In this document: piece by piece, positions 5,562-28,288 of the stretch
How the letters are laid out: the number at the start of each line of letters is the position of its first letter
How positions within the stretch are numbered: position 1 is the first letter of the stretch
From: a virus
Strand: one strand, 5' to 3'
IMG/VR virus record: IMGVR_UViG_3300022747_000027
Location: 1 to 35,980 of that record
DNA length: 35,980 nucleotides
The notes under the pieces: generated by a model
Told to the model about the DNA's origin: nothing
What the model saw: only the letters and a program-made list of their open reading frames with translations
Databases searched by the model: none
Translations under genes and position numbers: made by a program

Positions 5562-7091
5562 ATGCCTGTATATGAATATCAAGGACAACATTATGATTTA
5601 CCTGATGGCTTGTCCAATGAGCAGGCTCTTGCTAAGATTAAGAATCATTTAGGAGAGACTACAGAGGCTCCAAAGCCTGCTGAGTCTCCTTCTATAGGCT
5701 CTGAACTTGGTCGTCAGCTTGGATTGACAGCTCGTGCAGGTATCTCTGGATTATCTGCTGCTCCTAATGCTGTTGCAGACTTCTTATCAGGGGCTGCTAA
5801 TTTAGGTCTTCAAGCAGTTGGTTCTGAGAAGCGTGTTCCTTATTTGTCTCAAGTTCAACAAGAGGCTTTAAATAAAACCTTTCCTACTCCAAAACCCGGA
5901 TTAGAGCAGAATGTACAGACAGCCGCTGAGACTGTTGCTGGTATGATGACTCCCGGTATGAGGCCTACTTTTGCAGATATGGAAGGTGCTCCAGCTAAGG
6001 AGATTGGTCGTAGAGCTGCTGCTGAGACTGCTGCTGCTGTTACAGGCGCTGTTGTTGGCGAGAATGCCGCTAAAAAGGCACAAGAGATTACTGGTAGTCC
6101 TTGGGCTGGATTAGCTGCTGGTTTGGTTACTGGAACTATTGCAGGCAGTGCTACAGGTAAAGGTTTATTTGCTCTTACAGGCCCTCGTAAGGAAGCTGTA
6201 ACTATTGACCAGATTCGTGCCCGTGCCTCTAAAGGTTATCAAGCTATGGATGATGCAGGTGTAGCTCTTAAGACTACAACAATCCGAGATAAGCTTATTC
6301 CTAATATTAATAACGAACTCAAGGCTAATAACTACGATCCTGAGATTGTTGCTGCTCATAAAGATATCCAAGACAATCTTAAGCTCTTAGACAAAGTGAC
6401 TTCTAGCCCTTATGTGGATTTTGGTCGTTTAGAAAAGGTTCGTAGTGCTTTCAGCGACATTGCTAAAGGTACTGACGATAAAGCTCGGTTGGCTAAAGTT
6501 GTTACAAAAGAGATTGACTCTTATTTAGGCAACATCAAAGGCACAGATACCTTGTCCTTATCCGGCACATCTGCTACTAAGGCTATGGAAGCTCTTACAC
6601 AAGCCCGTACTGATTGGCGTAACCAGTCTCGTGCTCAGGTCATTCAAGACCTCTTAGATTCTTCGACGGCTCGTATCGAAGGTTCTACAGGAGCCACTGG
6701 CGACATTGTTAAGCGTAATCTGGTTAATTTGACAGCTAATCCTGAGAAGATGAAGATGTTCTCCACACGAGAGCAGAATATCATCAAGGCTGCTGCTAAA
6801 GCTACTGACATGGAGACTCTTCTGTCTCTGATGTCTAAGTTCAACCCTGAGCGCGGTGCTTTACAGGCTGTTATCGCCGGAAGTGCTCTTACACGGGCTG
6901 ATACCTTAAGCGGTCAGTTAGGTTTAGGCGCTGCCGGAGCAGGCTACTTATCTGACAAGGCTCTTACATCTCTGCGTAAGAAAGAGATTGAGAATCTGAT
7001 TAGTCAGATTGCTTCTGGCAACTTACAAGCCCCCAAAGAAGGATTTGCAGTTCCCGGTTTATTTGGCGCTACTATGGGAACAACAAAGTAA
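5562..7091 (+). CDS. Internal virion / DNA transfer protein
   Basis: A 509-aa protein starting MPVYEYQGQHYDLPDGLSNE, then QALAKIKNHLG. This short N-terminal module (YEYQGQ-YDLPDG-S-EQALAKI) recurs at the N-terminus of large phage proteins I know from ejection or internal virion clusters. It is followed by small-residue, potentially membrane-active segments (AAAETAAAVTGAVVGENAAK; WAGLAAGLVTGTIAGSATGK, residues about 145-205), then a helical region. These Ala/Gly-rich stretches fit a role in crossing the envelope during DNA delivery. Shine-Dalgarno TAAGGAG precedes the ATG. Lysis genes follow after 11 bases. Confidence 0.65.
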   Translation: MPVYEYQGQHYDLPDGLSNEQALAKIKNHLGETTEAPKPAESPSIGSELGRQLGLTARAGISGLSAAPNAVADFLSGAANLGLQAVGSEKRVPYLSQVQQEALNKTFPTPKPGLEQNVQTAAETVAGMMTPGMRPTFADMEGAPAKEIGRRAAAETAAAVTGAVVGENAAKKAQEITGSPWAGLAAGLVTGTIAGSATGKGLFALTGPRKEAVTIDQIRARASKGYQAMDDAGVALKTTTIRDKLIPNINNELKANNYDPEIVAAHKDIQDNLKLLDKVTSSPYVDFGRLEKVRSAFSDIAKGTDDKARLAKVVTKEIDSYLGNIKGTDTLSLSGTSATKAMEALTQARTDWRNQSRAQVIQDLLDSSTARIEGSTGATGDIVKRNLVNLTANPEKMKMFSTREQNIIKAAAKATDMETLLSLMSKFNPERGALQAVIAGSALTRADTLSGQLGLGAAGAGYLSDKALTSLRKKEIENLISQIASGNLQAPKEGFAVPGLFGATMGTTK

Positions 7092-8819: not shown

Positions 8820-9543
8820 GATGTCCATCCTCATAGTGTGTTTTAGCAATAATGTAGTTCTTGACGAGAGAGCTTCGTACAATGTCGTCAATACCAAACT
8901 CAAAGCGGCTGAACTCTTTCATGTTACCTGCAATATCTAAGAACTTCAGGATACCTGACTTGTCGTCCTTCTTACGCAGGTCAGTCTGTCGATAGTCACC
9001 ACAGAAGATGATCTTGGATTTATCTCCGACACGAGTGATGATCGTATCCAGCTCCTCAAAGTTCATATTCTGCATCTCATCGACAATCAGGATACTGTGC
9101 ATGAAAGTAGTACCACGAATGAAACTTGTGGATACGAATTCAATATGACCCTGCTCGACCAAGCGATCCCAAGCATCTTTTCGCTTGAACAGATCTGAGC
9201 AAATCTGTCGGTAAGGCTGGATATAAACGTCCATCTTTTCATCTACGTCTCCTGGGAGAAAGCCCATATCACGACTCTGAACTGAGCTACGGATAATAGT
9301 CACCTTGTTAAAGGGATTATTACGATCCATAACCTCTTCTAAAGCCTTATACAAGGCAATGTAAGTCTTACCTGTACCGGCTACTCCGTGCAAAGCCATG
9401 AAGTAGTCGCCACGTTGGAAAGCCTCAAAGAACTCTTTCTGTTTGTCTGTCTTAGGCTTGATAACTGCTATATCATCCAGCTTCAACTTCAAACTGTTAG
9501 TCTGCTTCTCTTTAGCAGTCTCTTTCTTGACAGGCACTTGCAC
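8806..9543 (-). CDS. phoH: PhoH-like ATPase
   Basis: A P-loop protein with Walker A GVAGTGKT and Walker B ILIVDEMQNM, and the PhoH hallmark segments RSSVQSRDMGFLPGDVDEK and GDYRQTDL. PhoH is a cytoplasmic ATPase common in phages, linked to RNA or phosphate-starvation physiology; its phage role is unsettled. Start choice: an in-frame ATG at 9564 has no ribosome site, whereas AAAGGAG, located inside the last codons of the glutaredoxin gene, is ideally placed for TTG 9546 or GTG 9543. I favour GTG 9543 (245 aa). It overlaps the ClpP-like gene by 14 bases, so the two are probably co-translated. Confidence 0.88.
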   Translation of the reverse strand: MQVPVKKETAKEKQTNSLKLKLDDIAVIKPKTDKQKEFFEAFQRGDYFMALHGVAGTGKTYIALYKALEEVMDRNNPFNKVTIIRSSVQSRDMGFLPGDVDEKMDVYIQPYRQICSDLFKRKDAWDRLVEQGHIEFVSTSFIRGTTFMHSILIVDEMQNMNFEELDTIITRVGDKSKIIFCGDYRQTDLRKKDDKSGILKFLDIAGNMKEFSRFEFGIDDIVRSSLVKNYIIAKTHYEDGHHGQG

Positions 9544-9547
9544 CAAA

Positions 9548-9733
9548 TTATTCTCCTTTGTCATTATCGACAACATACGGGACTGTACGCACCGTAGGGA
9601 ACTTAGACATGAACTCTTCTCGTGTAATATCTCGTCCGATAAGCATCTCTTTAAAAGGCTCGCCTGCCTTAGCAAGCTGAGCCTTCAAAGTGACACATCC
9701 AGGACAATTAGCCTGAGTGTACACTATTTTCAT
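9548..9733 (-). CDS. Glutaredoxin-like protein
   Basis: A compact 61-aa thioredoxin-fold protein. MKIVYTQANCPGCVTLKAQL contains the redox motif C-P-G-C at residues 10-13, and TVRTVPYVV holds the conserved cis-Pro segment (TVPY) that binds glutathione or substrate. It probably reduces the ribonucleotide reductase encoded immediately upstream, whose C-terminal cysteine pair needs a dithiol donor. The start has TAAGGAG eight bases upstream and the RNR stop is nine bases away. The protein is shorter than cellular glutaredoxins (about 80 aa), lacking much of the C-terminal helix, as in several phage versions. Confidence 0.85.
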   Translation of the reverse strand: MKIVYTQANCPGCVTLKAQLAKAGEPFKEMLIGRDITREEFMSKFPTVRTVPYVVDNDKGE

Positions 9734-9742
9734 TTTTACTCC

Positions 9743-11671
9743 TTATCGAACAGGGCAAGCACCTGTGGCGCATTCGCTATCGTCAAGACCAATATCAAGA
9801 CTACTGATAGTAGTAATCAAACGGGTTTTAGCTACCAGTTCGTCATACTGTTCCTTTGTAATCTCTTCCAGCGGAGCCTGCTTGAATCCATGCTCATTAT
9901 GTAGCAGGAAAGACAAACTCTTATGGTTGTTCTTATAGTTCTTCTTAAGATACTTACGAATCTCAGGAAGTTCTTCTTTACGATAATACACAGTGCATGA
10001 AACAGAGTTGTCGCTCCAAACTTCTTGCAGCCATTTAACTGTCTCAAGCTGTTGGATAGCTGTCATATCTTTAGCAAGCGTCGCATGATCGGGATGACGG
10101 AACGGGAAGGACACCACAACAGTGCTGTGATCTTCAGAGCCATCAAAGTTTTGTTGGTATTCCACAGGATAGCCATGCTCTCGGCAGGTTTGCACAAGAG
10201 GGTGGTTAGCACTAATACGAATACGTCGGATCATGTAGCGAGCATAGGCAGGATGACAACCAGGAGTAACGCCAGGAAGCAACGACAAAGTACCCGAGGG
10301 CTTGACAGTAGTGATCTTCACAGAAGGCGGAAAACCATTCCACAAAGAATACTGTTTATCAAACTCACGAAGTTCTTTATAAACATCGCTCAGCCAGCTT
10401 TTCTGTTCTTCCGTAGCTTGGAGCACGCCCGTGACACCAATACCCATACGCATATTTTTATGTACAATCTCTTCAGTAATCTTAAGATGGAACGGGAGAG
10501 CAAGCGAGTGCTTGTTGACACGGTAGAGAAGCTTTGCAACATCTAGCATTTCCTCTTTAGAAGTAATATTGGGCAAATAAATTTCCGCAAGGCAGCAAGT
10601 CTCACCGTCAGCCAAGCTCTGCTCCGCACAAGGATTGTAACCTTGTACATCGGGATCAGGGTATTCGGTTTCACCCAATCGGCCAATCTTACGGGACAGT
10701 TTGAGGTTAATAAGGCCATAAGGCTCTCCTTTTCCTTCGTATCCATCCCAGAAGAACTCATGAAGGTCTCCAATGTCGTGACAAACAACGCTGTTGTTGG
10801 ACATTGCCCGCCAACTCGGGATGTTACCCAAGTCCCATCGTTTAGCAAGTAGATATTCCACATCGTCAGGATCTCCAATAGCAATTTGAGCACTTCGTCG
10901 AACATTGCCGGCAACAACAATAGCTCCGATGATATTCATGATATCAAGGCAGTCCACAGGACGAAGCTTCTTTCCTGCTCGTTTTTCAAGAATTTCGCCA
11001 ATCTTGCCAATACCCCACACAAGGTCTTCTGGGCCACTAGCAGTACCGCCAAAGCCTTTAATCGGAGCTCCTTTAGATCGAATCAACTGAGTCGAATACG
11101 TGAAAGTTTGTTTACCAGATTTGTGAGCCAAGAAAGCAGCTTTAAGCGTTTTACCAAGAAGGGCAACCCATCCTTCACGGCTATCAGGAACAACAAAATC
11201 AGCGTCGGGAACATCAGAGCGAACAGGGCACTTAAAATCCAAATTAACTGGAGGAAGTTTTTCAACATTGGCTTTTTGAATATTATAACCGACACCAGAA
11301 CCCAACATCAACAAATCCATGGCCCACGTAAAAGGCTCTACAGGCTCGTCAACAACCTTAAACGCACAGTTTTGAAGGCTTGCTCCGCCCAAGCGACCAA
11401 CAGTATCTGTACCGAGCTGCCACAAGAAGCGGCCAGCAACAGTGCCTTTAAGCTCCATCAAATACTTTTTAAGACGTTGTTGCTCGTCTTCTGTAAAACC
11501 AACACCTAGCTGTGTGTTTGAAGCATTGACGACGCGGTTTACAGTATCCTCAAATTCTTCCGTTGCGCTGTTGGGATCGTTTTCATCCAAACGACGAGCG
11601 TAGGTTCGTTTATAGGTAATATACCCAACAGAGCTAAACGGGGTATTATAATTCAGGGTTTCAGCAGTCAC
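9743..11671 (-). CDS. nrdJ: Class II (B12-dependent) ribonucleoside-triphosphate reductase
   Basis: A 642-aa enzyme of the monomeric adenosylcobalamin-dependent RNR type (Lactobacillus leichmannii RTPR-like). It makes deoxynucleotides from ribonucleotides. The thiyl-radical motif NPCAEQSLADGETCC supplies Cys348 and Glu350, with Cys359 exactly 11 residues after the radical Cys as in RTPR (408/419). LQNCAF gives the partner Cys102, and the C-terminus CATGACPVR has two Cys five apart for re-reduction. MNIIGAIVVAGNVRRSAQIA is diagnostic for this subgroup. The start is GTG at 11671, overlapping the end of the preceding small gene. The dependency on host or environmental B12 is notable. Glutaredoxin follows as likely reductant. 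Confidence 0.92.
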   Translation of the reverse strand: MTAETLNYNTPFSSVGYITYKRTYARRLDENDPNSATEEFEDTVNRVVNASNTQLGVGFTEDEQQRLKKYLMELKGTVAGRFLWQLGTDTVGRLGGASLQNCAFKVVDEPVEPFTWAMDLLMLGSGVGYNIQKANVEKLPPVNLDFKCPVRSDVPDADFVVPDSREGWVALLGKTLKAAFLAHKSGKQTFTYSTQLIRSKGAPIKGFGGTASGPEDLVWGIGKIGEILEKRAGKKLRPVDCLDIMNIIGAIVVAGNVRRSAQIAIGDPDDVEYLLAKRWDLGNIPSWRAMSNNSVVCHDIGDLHEFFWDGYEGKGEPYGLINLKLSRKIGRLGETEYPDPDVQGYNPCAEQSLADGETCCLAEIYLPNITSKEEMLDVAKLLYRVNKHSLALPFHLKITEEIVHKNMRMGIGVTGVLQATEEQKSWLSDVYKELREFDKQYSLWNGFPPSVKITTVKPSGTLSLLPGVTPGCHPAYARYMIRRIRISANHPLVQTCREHGYPVEYQQNFDGSEDHSTVVVSFPFRHPDHATLAKDMTAIQQLETVKWLQEVWSDNSVSCTVYYRKEELPEIRKYLKKNYKNNHKSLSFLLHNEHGFKQAPLEEITKEQYDELVAKTRLITTISSLDIGLDDSECATGACPVR

Positions 11672-25126: not shown

Positions 25127-25333
25127 TTAGACTTTACACTCACTGTCTACAGTGTAAGCGCCTTTGCTACTAATGATATAGTCAATCGCCATATCTTTAT
25201 CATCCAGACGGATAGTGTCCAGACGTTCGCCCACAATAGGATCGTTGACCCATTGGTGCAAGACAATCCATCCAGCACGGTTAAACTTGATAGTCTTAGA
25301 CAGTTTGTTGTGCAGTGATTCGAAGCGAGACAT
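25127..25333 (-). CDS. First gene of the leftward early transcript (68 aa)
   Basis: The 68-aa product (MSRFESLHNKLSKTIKFNRA, then GWIVLHQWVNDPIVGERLDT) is mixed alpha/beta with no recognised motif. It is the promoter-proximal gene of the leftward arm: the promoter at 25386-25413 would give a leader of about 45 bases that begins with a stem-loop, with AAAGG eight bases before the ATG. Position suggests an immediate-early protein acting on the host, but this is inference. Confidence 0.7.
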   Translation of the reverse strand: MSRFESLHNKLSKTIKFNRAGWIVLHQWVNDPIVGERLDTIRLDDKDMAIDYIISSKGAYTVDSECKV

Positions 25334-25385
25334 AGTAGGCCTTTCAAGTGTTGCTGCACTGATGTAATTGCCAGTGCATGGGTGT

Positions 25386-25413
25386 ATTGTATAACCTATA
25401 ACGTGGATGTCAA
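25386..25413 (-). promoter_or_regulatory. Main leftward early promoter (sigma70)
   Basis: The minus strand has TTGACA (25408-25413), a 16-bp spacer and TACAAT (25386-25391). Transcription would start near 25379, so the RNA would open with a stem-loop, TGCACTG/CAGTGCA (25355-25361 with 25372-25378), immediately before the ribosome site of the first early gene. Such 5' stem-loops protect phage messages from decay. Confidence 0.8.
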
Positions 25414-25484
25414 GCCCTAGATGACTGGCTTTACAAAACTTTACAATACTGTAAGTTTAGTGTCAGTACTTTGCAGTGATTCAT

Positions 25485-25499
25485 TTTAGGTATCCTAAA
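25485..25499. promoter_or_regulatory. Perfect palindrome, operator candidate
   Basis: TTTAGG-TAT-CCTAAA is a perfect 6-3-6 inverted repeat located between the leftward early promoter and the tandem sigma54-like promoters, about 58 bp upstream of the first. It could bind a dimeric repressor or the enhancer-binding activator that sigma54 promoters require. No matching known consensus was recognised. Confidence 0.4.
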
Positions 25500-25542
25500 T
25501 AGGCACCCACATCGTCTCCCACATCCTGAAATCCTATAAAGC

Positions 25543-25600
25543 TGGCATGATTCTTGCATGACCCTACACTGGATCATGAAACCTGGCACGATTCTTGCAT
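25543..25600 (+). promoter_or_regulatory. Two tandem sigma54 (RpoN) promoter matches
   Basis: Copy 1 TGGCATG-ATTC-TTGCA (25543-25558) and copy 2 TGGCACG-ATTC-TTGCA (25584-25599) match the sigma54 consensus TGGCACG-N4-TTGCW; copy 2 is perfect and copy 1 has one difference. In both, GG and GC are separated by exactly ten bases, as required for -24/-12 recognition. They are 41 bp apart, direct repeats, pointing toward the late genes. Initiation would be near 25569 and 25610. Activation would need a host enhancer-binding protein. Confidence 0.6.
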
Positions 25601-25630
25601 GGACTTCAGTGTTCCTGGCTCAAGCGTAAC

Positions 25631-25652
25631 GCAAATGAGACTGATTCGCATT
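25631..25652. promoter_or_regulatory. Fur-box-like site
   Basis: AAATGAGACTGATTCGCATT (25633-25652, with GC in front) differs at only three of twenty positions from the palindromic Fur-type sequence AAATGAGAATCATTCTCATT seen at iron-regulated promoters of proteobacteria. It is about 20-40 bases downstream of the predicted start of the second sigma54-like promoter, where bound Fur would block elongation or initiation. Confidence 0.45.
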
Positions 25653-25889
25653 CAAGACCGGGGGAGGGGTATTGAGGACTGTAAAGTTTTTGCAGGAGCC
25701 TCTAACGCTTACAAAAAAGTAAAACTGGAACTAAATAGTTGCTTAAATAATAGGCAACATTGTCACTACAAAGGCTAATAACGACAATAGTTTAGATAAA
25801 TATTCATATAGAAAACTAGGGAGGAAACTGTGCACCCTGAAAGTGGGAACTATAGAGTAGTACTTTAAAGGTAAAAAAAGAAGCAAGAA

Positions 25890-25905
25890 CGTGATTAAGA
25901 TCACA
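25890..25905. promoter_or_regulatory. Crp/Fnr-like site
   Basis: CGTGA-TTAAGA-TCACA matches the Crp half-sites TGTGA-N6-TCACA at nine of ten positions. Its centre is about 80 bases upstream of the predicted late start near 25978, a spacing compatible with activation from upstream. A Crp/Fnr-family regulator in the host could bind. Short sites of this kind also occur by chance. Confidence 0.4.
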
Positions 25906-25942
25906 TGAATGTAAAAATAATTGTAAAAGTTGTAAAAAAGAC

Positions 25943-25971
25943 TTGACAAAACAGGAAAAGTATGCTATAAT
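25943..25971 (+). promoter_or_regulatory. Rightward late promoter (perfect sigma70, extended -10)
   Basis: TTGACA (25943-25948), a 17-bp spacer and TATAAT (25966-25971) with TGC immediately before it form an ideal extended -10 sigma70 promoter. It would produce a leader of about 230 bases ahead of the small terminase gene. This is the strongest promoter in the window and should drive the packaging and head genes, so delayed timing would require repression or the upstream sites. Confidence 0.88.
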
Positions 25972-26002
25972 ATATGTACTTGTTAAATTTAGACAGTAAC
26001 AA

Positions 26003-26060
26003 GTCAGGAACTCAAGTTAAAACTATGAAGTACCTAAGAAGCCTGACCCCACTTCTTAGG
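26003..26060 (+). promoter_or_regulatory. Hairpin with potential pseudoknot in the late leader
   Basis: CCTAAGAAG (26033-26041) pairs perfectly with CTTCTTAGG (26052-26060), leaving a ten-base loop that begins CCTGAC (26042-26047). That loop sequence is the exact complement of GTCAGG at 26003-26008, so a six-base-pair pseudoknot or alternative stem is possible. Its location just after the promoter start fits an antitermination or stability element. Confidence 0.55.
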
Positions 26061-26094
26061 AATGTCACTAAAGACCGTTAACGTGCTCTCGTAG

Positions 26095-26155
26095 AGGAAC
26101 TAATTTAAGTAATACTTATAAAGAACATAAATAAGTATATTTAACTTAGATTCCT
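26095..26155 (+). promoter_or_regulatory. Long imperfect hairpin in the late leader
   Basis: ATACTTAT (26112-26119) pairs with ATAAGTAT (26131-26138). Outer segments continue the stem imperfectly: TAAGT (26106-26110) with ACTTA (26144-26148) and AGGAA (26095-26099) with TTCCT (26151-26155). The loop is 11 bases. It lies 55 bases upstream of the terminase small subunit start and could shield or process the message (for example by RNase III). Confidence 0.5.
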
Positions 26156-26209
26156 GTACTTAGACGTATTCTACAGACTCCAAAGTCTCCTACTAAGGAC
26201 AAAGACGAT

Positions 26210-26608
26210 ATGACTAAACCATCAGGTAACAAAAAAGGTAGACCTAAGAAGACAGACATTGAGACTGTCAAGACAGGCAATAGAGGCCAAGTAGGTCGTC
26301 CTAAAGGTGATGCAGCCATCATCAATGAATATAAAGCTAGAATGTTAGCTTCACCTAAGTCCGCTAAGGTCTTAGAGACTATTCTCAATGCTGCTCTGAA
26401 TGATGAACATCCTCACCAAGCTGCTGCATGGAAGTTAGTAGCTGATCGTATTGTCCCTGTATCTGCTTTTGATCAGTCTAAGAACTCAGGTTCTACACCT
26501 CAAATCAGTATCAATATCTCAGGTCTTACAGCTCCAACGGCTGAGGTCGTAGAGGACATCACGGACGTAGAAATTAAACCTTACGAACAAGATTTAGACA
26601 CCCAGTGA
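26210..26608 (+). CDS. Terminase small subunit
   Basis: A 132-aa protein with a basic, Gly/Lys-rich N-terminus (KPSGNKKGRPKKTD and QVGRPKGD, resembling AT-hook-like GRPK repeats), then a helical core (AIINEYKARMLASPKSAKVL and HQAAAWKLVADRIVP) and an acidic C-terminus. It directly precedes the large terminase module, so it most probably recognises phage DNA and recruits the motor. The pattern is known from small terminases of other podoviruses. TAAGGA lies about eleven bases upstream of the ATG. Confidence 0.82.
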   Translation: MTKPSGNKKGRPKKTDIETVKTGNRGQVGRPKGDAAIINEYKARMLASPKSAKVLETILNAALNDEHPHQAAAWKLVADRIVPVSAFDQSKNSGSTPQISINISGLTAPTAEVVEDITDVEIKPYEQDLDTQ

Positions 26609-26672: not shown

Positions 26673-27041
26673 ATGAAGAAATGTAACAAATGTGGTGAAT
26701 TTAAACCGTTCACTGAATTTAACAAACACAAGTCAACTAAAGACGGCTACGGAACGTACTGCCGTCCTTGCTATAATTATCAGACATTGGCTGGGAAGCA
26801 TCGTAAGCGATACGGACTAACACCAGAACAAATGGCTGAAATGAAAAAAACAGGCTGTGAACTTTGTGGAACTATGTCGAATCTGCACATAGATCACAAT
26901 CACGAAACAAATGAGATACGAGGAGTTCTCTGCACAAACTGCAACAGAGGCCTTGGACATTTCAAAGACTCTCCGGAACTTTTAAAGAAAGCGGCTGAGT
27001 ATCTGGAAAAGAAAGGAAACTATAGCAAATGGCAGAACTGA
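26673..27041 (+). CDS. HNH endonuclease (endonuclease VII-like) between terminase genes
   Basis: The start is taken at ATG 26673 (AGAGGATCACA before it), giving 122 aa. The zinc ribbon is MKKCNKCGEFKPFTEFNKHK (C-x2-C) with YCRPCYN; the linker is KRYGLTPEQMAEMKKTGCEL, then CGTM; the HNH core is LHIDHNHETNEIRGVLCTNC and NRGLGHFKDS. It is the same family as the nuclease at 18.8-19.3 kb. Its 3' end overlaps the large terminase start by 13 bases. Homing nucleases often insert here, but HNH proteins also take part in packaging in some phages, so either role is possible. Confidence 0.88.
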   Translation: MKKCNKCGEFKPFTEFNKHKSTKDGYGTYCRPCYNYQTLAGKHRKRYGLTPEQMAEMKKTGCELCGTMSNLHIDHNHETNEIRGVLCTNCNRGLGHFKDSPELLKKAAEYLEKKGNYSKWQN

Positions 27042-28288
27042 ACTTTCAGCTTCTTCGCTGGCAACAAGAAGTGTTTAAAGACACAAAACGTTTTAAAGTT
27101 GTTGCGGCAGGACGACGCTGCGGTAAATCTAGACTATCCGCTGTTACATTGTTAATCGAAGGTTTGAATTGTCCTGAAGGCTCTTCGGTTATGTATGTTG
27201 CCCCAACGTTAGGGCAGGCCCGAACAATTATTTGGGAGTTGTTGCATGATCTAGGCAGGCCTATTATTAAAGCTAGCCACATCAACAATCTTGAAATAAC
27301 TCTAATCAACGGAAGAAAAATTCTTGTCCGAGGAGCAGATAATCCTGATTCTTTACGGGGTGTTTCTTTAACGTATTTAGTTTTAGACGAATGCGCCTTC
27401 ATTAAAGAAGACGTATGGCAAAAGATCTTACGTGCTGCTCTGTCCGATAAGAAAGGTAGAGCACTGTTCATCTCTACACCTTCAGGCCGTAACTGGTTCT
27501 ACGATGTATATAAGCTAGGCCAGGATGAGACAGACGAAGAGTGGAAGTCATGGCACTTCACTACTCAAGATAACGAGACCATTGATCCTAAGGAAATTGA
27601 GGCTGCTAAACGTACCTTAAGTTCCTTTGCCTTCAAGCAGGAATACTTGTCTAGCTTCGATAATGCAGGAGCTGATGTCTTTAAGGAAGAATGGTTCAAG
27701 CTAGGTGAAGAGCCTCAGTATGGTGAATACGTAGTAGCCATCGACTTAGCAGGCTTTGAAGACGTAGCTAAGAATGCAGGTGCTTCTAAGAAACGTCTGG
27801 ATGAATCAGCTATTGCTATCGTCAAGGTTGAAGACAATGGTGATTGGTGGGTAGAAAAGATCGTACATGGTCGATGGGACATCAGAGAGACTGCTGTCAA
27901 TATCCTGAAGACTATCCGAGACTACAAGCCTATCTCAGTTGGTATTGAACGTGGAGCATTAAAGAATGCTGTTCTGCCCTATCTGAACGATCTGATGCGT
28001 AAGAATAACATCTACGCTCATATCCAAGATTTAACTCATGGTAACCGTAAGAAGACTGACCGTGTTGTCTGGAGCCTACAAGGGCGTATGGAACATGGCA
28101 GGATCAAGTTCAATGAGGATGAAGATTGGGATGAATTCAAAGATCAGTTAGTCATGTTCCCTACAGCAGGTGTTCATGACGATCAGGTAGATGCTTTGTC
28201 TTACATTGACCAACTGGCTATCACATCTTATCAACAAGATTACGAAGAGGATGAATATGAAATCCTCGACCCTATAAGTGGATACTAA
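27029..28288 (+). CDS. Terminase large subunit
   Basis: A 419-aa packaging motor. The ATPase domain has Walker A AAGRRCGKSR (Lys33), Walker B YLVLDE (Asp120, Glu121) and coupling motif FISTPSG (residues 148-153). The RNase H-like nuclease domain has AIDLAG (Asp239), GIERGA (Glu307) and HDDQVDALSY (Asp384/385/388). It translocates DNA into the prohead and cuts it. It is shorter than T7 gp19 (586 aa) but complete in motifs. AAAGGA precedes the ATG at 27029. The start overlaps the HNH gene, so expression is coupled to it. Confidence 0.95.
   Translation: MAELNFQLLRWQQEVFKDTKRFKVVAAGRRCGKSRLSAVTLLIEGLNCPEGSSVMYVAPTLGQARTIIWELLHDLGRPIIKASHINNLEITLINGRKILVRGADNPDSLRGVSLTYLVLDECAFIKEDVWQKILRAALSDKKGRALFISTPSGRNWFYDVYKLGQDETDEEWKSWHFTTQDNETIDPKEIEAAKRTLSSFAFKQEYLSSFDNAGADVFKEEWFKLGEEPQYGEYVVAIDLAGFEDVAKNAGASKKRLDESAIAIVKVEDNGDWWVEKIVHGRWDIRETAVNILKTIRDYKPISVGIERGALKNAVLPYLNDLMRKNNIYAHIQDLTHGNRKKTDRVVWSLQGRMEHGRIKFNEDEDWDEFKDQLVMFPTAGVHDDQVDALSYIDQLAITSYQQDYEEDEYEILDPISGY

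Follow-up and report, generated by a model that had tools for sequence, protein, structure and literature searches.

Tandem RpoN-type boxes in the control region of a podovirus-like phage are probably part of an array of host-regulator binding sites

We wanted to understand what two closely spaced boxes of the sigma54 (RpoN) type do in the divergent control region of a phage, and whether they serve as promoters for its late genes. The window, by which we mean the whole stretch of DNA analyzed here, is the IMG/VR virus record IMGVR_UViG_3300022747_000027 and is 35,980 bases long. Its gene content is podovirus-like, with a T7-type DNA polymerase, a primase/helicase, endonuclease I, the terminase large subunit, a portal protein, and a major head protein; Thy1 and ribonucleotide reductase are encoded as well. 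Relatives of its terminase are many in IMG/VR; a TerL search of the GTDB genomes returned no relative, a DNA search of cultured phages no close relative, and protein searches with the portal and the DUF7222 protein no near isolate. Early genes run leftward and late genes rightward from a gap at about 25334-26209, which lies between the first leftward early ORF (68 amino acids; 25127..25333, minus strand) and the first rightward ORF (132 amino acids; 26210..26608, plus strand), the latter in the small-terminase position and without a family match. The terminase large subunit follows at 27029..28288 on the plus strand (phrog_2, E 5e-48). The gap holds a strong leftward early promoter of the sigma70 type, TTGACA-16-TACAAT (25386..25413, minus strand, score 11/12), and an extended rightward late promoter of the same type, TTGACA-17-TATAAT with TGC before the -10 element (25943..25971, plus strand), which is a perfect 12/12.

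Box 1, TGGCATGATTCTTGCA (25543..25558), and box 2, TGGCACGATTCTTGCA (25584..25599), lie between these promoters, both on the plus strand. The preliminary description had taken both for matches to TGGCACGN4TTGCW that point rightward, and we find their place and direction as it gave them, 41 bp apart from start to start and with GG-N10-GC retained in each; box 2 matches the consensus perfectly, but box 1 carries one mismatch (TGGCATG). In their extended form, AAASCTGGCAYGATTCTTGCATG, the two copies share 91% identity over 23 nt, and across the whole record TGGCAYGN4TTGCW is matched by these two boxes only. Two same-strand sites with at most one mismatch within 60 bp of each other were seen in 0 of 400 dinucleotide shuffles, in which such sites averaged 0.32 per shuffled window. 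Looser patterns did not stand out in the window: GG-N10-GC alone occurs 173 times against 168 expected, and the 7 sites with at most two mismatches do not differ significantly from the expected 4.4. Close relatives of the window phage retain both boxes: box 1 is kept in L004, L102, and L191, and in L059 the spacer between the boxes has diverged, yet both boxes, including the perfect box 2, and the 41-bp spacing are preserved. Further, 778 distinct viral boxes follow the RpoN consensus, mrNrYTGGCACGN4TTGCWNNw (PMC2725144), at the free positions as well, with Y before TGG in 86%, R at the positions next to it, and W after TTGC in 93%. Judged by their sequence, the two boxes are real RpoN-type sites.

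The boxes sit between two conserved elements. The right element, which we call the G block, reads GGGGGAGGGG-N27-AGCCTC (25660..25702, plus strand) and begins ~60 bp downstream of box 2; in relatives it takes the form GGGGGAGGGG-N27-RRCCTC-...-ACAAAAA, with the same rigid spacing, in more than 100 viral contigs (the window; L200-L317). The element resembles the G-rich CSB II of mitochondrial DNA. The left element, AGGCACCCACATCGTCTCCCAC (25501..25522, plus strand), bounds the array on the other side and is present, as AGGGTCCTACATCGCCTCCCAC, in 35 of 100 relatives at -107 to -274 bp from the G block. In the window, a palindrome, TTTTAGGTATCCTAAAT, is found immediately to the left of this element at 25486-25502. 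The idea of a conserved RNA at the G block was rejected, as neither covariation nor an Rfam match was found. The block does not look like a fixed end of the genome either: many contigs end near TerL, but at scattered points, and none of the TerL contigs inspected begins exactly at the G block. The region is like phage cos or pac sites in having a conserved element upstream of the terminase genes and unlike them in showing no sharp contig end there and in that the boxes also occur in phages with unrelated terminases.

For 100 non-redundant relatives, we surveyed the 400 bp that precede the G block and compared them with dinucleotide shuffles and with the 400 bp downstream. RpoN-type sites numbered 37 upstream (0.1 in shuffles, 0 downstream), DnaA sites, TTATCCACA, 85 (0.4 and 0), LexA sites, CTGTN8ACAG, 26 (1.4 and 0), Fur-like sites 31 (0.4 and 1), parS sites with at most two mismatches 7 (0.0 and 0), and the TetR-operator-like palindrome AGTNAGTGCNNACTNACT 59 (0.7 and 2); a mirrored RpoN control gave 0 matches in the same survey. 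Several of these families are defined by short or mismatched patterns, and their assignment to a regulator is putative. A few loci, among them L167, L189, and L414, had been retrieved by means of the RpoN box, which slightly inflates the count of RpoN sites but does not affect the other counts in this way. Some 14 of the 100 regions are without the A-rich part that follows downstream in the element; these are possibly chance matches, which would only dilute the counts. At least one regulator site is present in 84 of the 100 relatives, and all site types cluster near the G block, the nearest often beginning within about 35 bp of it. In the window, the site nearest the G block is a weak Fur-box-like palindrome, ATGAGACTGATTCGCAT, with 2 mismatches (25635..25651). 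RpoN boxes vary from 0 to 9 copies per relative and point right in 19 cases and left in 18. In L379, L394, L412, and L373, 8-9 boxes alternate in direction with a period near 47 bp, and these arrays stop just short of a G-rich block. We note that four of the 7 parS sites are exact copies of the chromosomal-type TGTTTCACGTGAAACA, located in the control regions of L060, L167, L189, and L247, and that the palindrome AGTNAGTGCNNACTNACT stands directly before the G block in relatives such as L016, L210, and L242.

Similar arrays occur beyond the relatives that carry the G block. In 138 arrays without this element, DnaA sites (34 versus 0), Fur-like sites (26 versus 1.7), and T sites (33 versus 0) were found near the boxes and not at 1.5-2.5 kb from them. 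The tandem box pattern had at least 120 matches in the viral collection, whereas the genomes of bacteria and archaea, 257 billion bases in all, gave 39, and no plasmids carrying the array were found. The preliminary description had suggested looking for the boxes before terminase genes in related phages. The exact 18-mer TGGCAYGATTCTTGCATG, present in 117 IMG/VR contigs, often lies upstream of terminase genes of several groups. Gene-context statistics from our crude ORF calling give rough support. Searches of the open-access literature brought up no account of sigma54 or LexA/Fur arrays in phages.

The box search also led to KIT04 and VCPH, two Vibrio phages of the Demerecviridae, and to Pseudomonas phage SYP. 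In these phages, one or two noncoding gaps hold a concentration of RpoN, LexA, Fur, DnaA, or parS sites, and noncoding gaps of T5, SPC35, and DT57C do so for LexA, Fur, and DnaA sites. The examined gaps hold 8/10 sites in T5, 9/11 in KIT04, 14/14 in VCPH, 13/21 in SYP, 14/16 in SPC35, and 12/13 in DT57C; the gaps were picked after the matches had been seen, so the binomial values are descriptive. Vibrio phage pVp-1 was left out of this comparison, its pre-early region lying outside the sequence examined. T5 (L482) carries the LexA site CTGTATAAATATACAG twice, and its LexA, DnaA, and Fur-like sites, at 6213, 9411, 9510, 9553, 9657, and 9692, fall in two places, the divergent gap of the pre-early region and the injection stop signal, five of them within the annotated extent of the latter (9140-10149). 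DnaA boxes and palindromes are known in this signal and are thought to bind host components (PMC13250531); a report of LexA and Fur sites in it was not found in the open-access literature. No RpoN box is present in T5 1-16 kb, and T7 gave one DnaA match and no other site. As clusters of host-protein sites and palindromes in noncoding DNA, the arrays in relatives of the window phage strongly resemble the T5 injection stop signal, whereas the window has, besides its two RpoN boxes, a single weak Fur-like site, and its phage, unlike T5, has no known two-step DNA transfer or defined genome ends.

On these grounds, we consider it probable that the two boxes make up one module in an array of binding sites for host regulators, which would act by occupancy or titration and not by directional initiation. 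RpoN can bind DNA on its own, without core, and the closed complexes that it forms are stable (PMC2725144). Both boxes would then be high-affinity sites for host RpoN, alone or as closed-complex RNA polymerase holoenzyme, in a modular array placed between the two conserved elements of the divergent early/late control region, and the same slot in relatives would hold RpoN sites that differ in number and orientation, or else sites for LexA, Fur, DnaA, ParB, or TetR-like proteins. From the interchangeable contents of the slot, we infer that selection acts on how abundant DNA-binding proteins of the host occupy the array or are titrated by it. Most likely, host proteins would coat the array during DNA entry or replication and form a protein-bound barrier or anchor, much as has been proposed for the injection stop signal of T5, or the rising phage copy number would pull regulators off host promoters, or both; either effect, barrier or titration, could be the one that matters. 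Loci for protein titration, such as datA-like loci that titrate DnaA and decoy sites, gather high-affinity sites for a host regulator away from its regulon. The array would resemble them in its clustered, apparently high-affinity sites and differs from them in that several unrelated regulators share one interchangeable slot. Points against the array reading are that the window's array is small, because its only other site is the weak Fur-like palindrome, that every box in the window's own clade (the window, L004, L059, L060, L167, and L189) points right, as late-operon promoters would, that a sister clade has a sigma54-type box in a true promoter position (see below), and that several of the site families are short or mismatched patterns.

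More tentatively, and with less confidence than in the reading of this locus, we suggest that the arrays represent a widespread, previously unrecognized piece of phage anatomy, in which interchangeable high-affinity sites for whichever DNA-binding regulators a host offers (RpoN, LexA, Fur, DnaA, ParB, TetR-like) are gathered at a fixed control site and act through occupancy, for instance as sponges during replication or, as in the injection stop signal of T5, as brakes or anchors on entering DNA. If this is right, the host regulators bound to the arrayed sites would be the working part, and the cause of the T5 injection stop, together with the odd repeats beside early promoters of many uncultivated phages, would become testable with host mutants. 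It would also counsel caution in taking every phage-borne box of the sigma54, LexA, or Fur type for a promoter or an operator.

The alternative that survives best is that of the preliminary description, namely that the boxes are working tandem sigma54 promoters, directed rightward into the late leader, with starts near 25569 and 25610 and in need of a host enhancer-binding protein. The boxes are near-perfect and resemble sigma54-dependent promoters in sequence, GG-N10-GC spacing, and flanking preferences at the free positions, L059 keeps them at 41 bp despite its diverged spacer, and the rightward direction throughout the window's clade fits such a role. A sister clade also speaks for this reading. 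In twelve relatives, a left-pointing box with a match of at least 11/12 precedes the first leftward ORF called by our script; the box of L081 was discounted, being an array box, and in the other eleven (L030, L070, L207, L209, L211, L274, L287, L294, L296, L309, and L311) it lies 55-72 bp before the ATG, in a distal position. None of these eleven has a strong sigma70 early promoter, and fifteen others have one of the sigma70 type and no box. Their boxes stand at promoter distance, and these phages may therefore recruit RpoN as a promoter factor and use sigma54-type promoters in their early region, in which case early expression would depend on host activators. For the two boxes of the window, several features speak against late promoters. 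Among relatives, the number and orientation of boxes are free (19:18, with up to 9 in alternating arrays), and the slot interchanges with repressor and initiator sites. Box 2 is about 600 bp from the first late ORF. Moreover, the sigma70 late promoter is conserved, with a score of at least 11/12 in 43 of the 86 regions left after those lacking the A-rich part were dropped, against 0/86 shuffled sequences; therefore, an ordinary promoter is available to serve the late operon. Nor was an enhancer-binding protein (bEBP) over the cut-off, or the sigma54 DNA-binding domain, found in 50 box-bearing virus records, some of which are fragments. Thus, the earlier sigma54 reading holds for the nature and conservation of the boxes and gains from the sister clade, but its late-promoter part is possible, not favored, and in our estimate rather unlikely, and the array reading is the better supported of the two.

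We also considered that the boxes might be sites for a phage protein, such as the terminase small subunit, an initiator, or an iteron-binding protein, that shares the RpoN consensus by coincidence. In many phages, the arrays precede the terminase genes, and they are found close to DnaA boxes; moreover, box spacing suggests helical phasing: among the 778 viral boxes, same-strand spacing has a sharp minimum of 25 bp and peaks near 26, 36-37, 47, and 54, and opposed pairs are 17-22 or 22-26 bp apart, a spacing pattern that counts toward the array reading as well. However, the motif is also present in unrelated phages, including T5-like phages of Vibrio and a large Pseudomonas phage, its free positions follow the RpoN consensus, and the slot is common to sites of known host proteins, which together make this explanation improbable. 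Chance or a simple local duplication without function is very improbable indeed, for although the two copies of the 23-nt unit could be one duplication, the shuffles gave no such pair, the boxes are kept while spacers diverge, and the core motif has 328 matches in box-bearing loci versus 4 for a reversed control, of which at least 129 of the 328 arise by construction since the loci were retrieved by the exact box.

In four further loci (L112, L139, L156, and L173), we note that box arrays lie upstream of an intein/Hint-like ORF, which is followed by a terminase-like protein of 480-482 amino acids.
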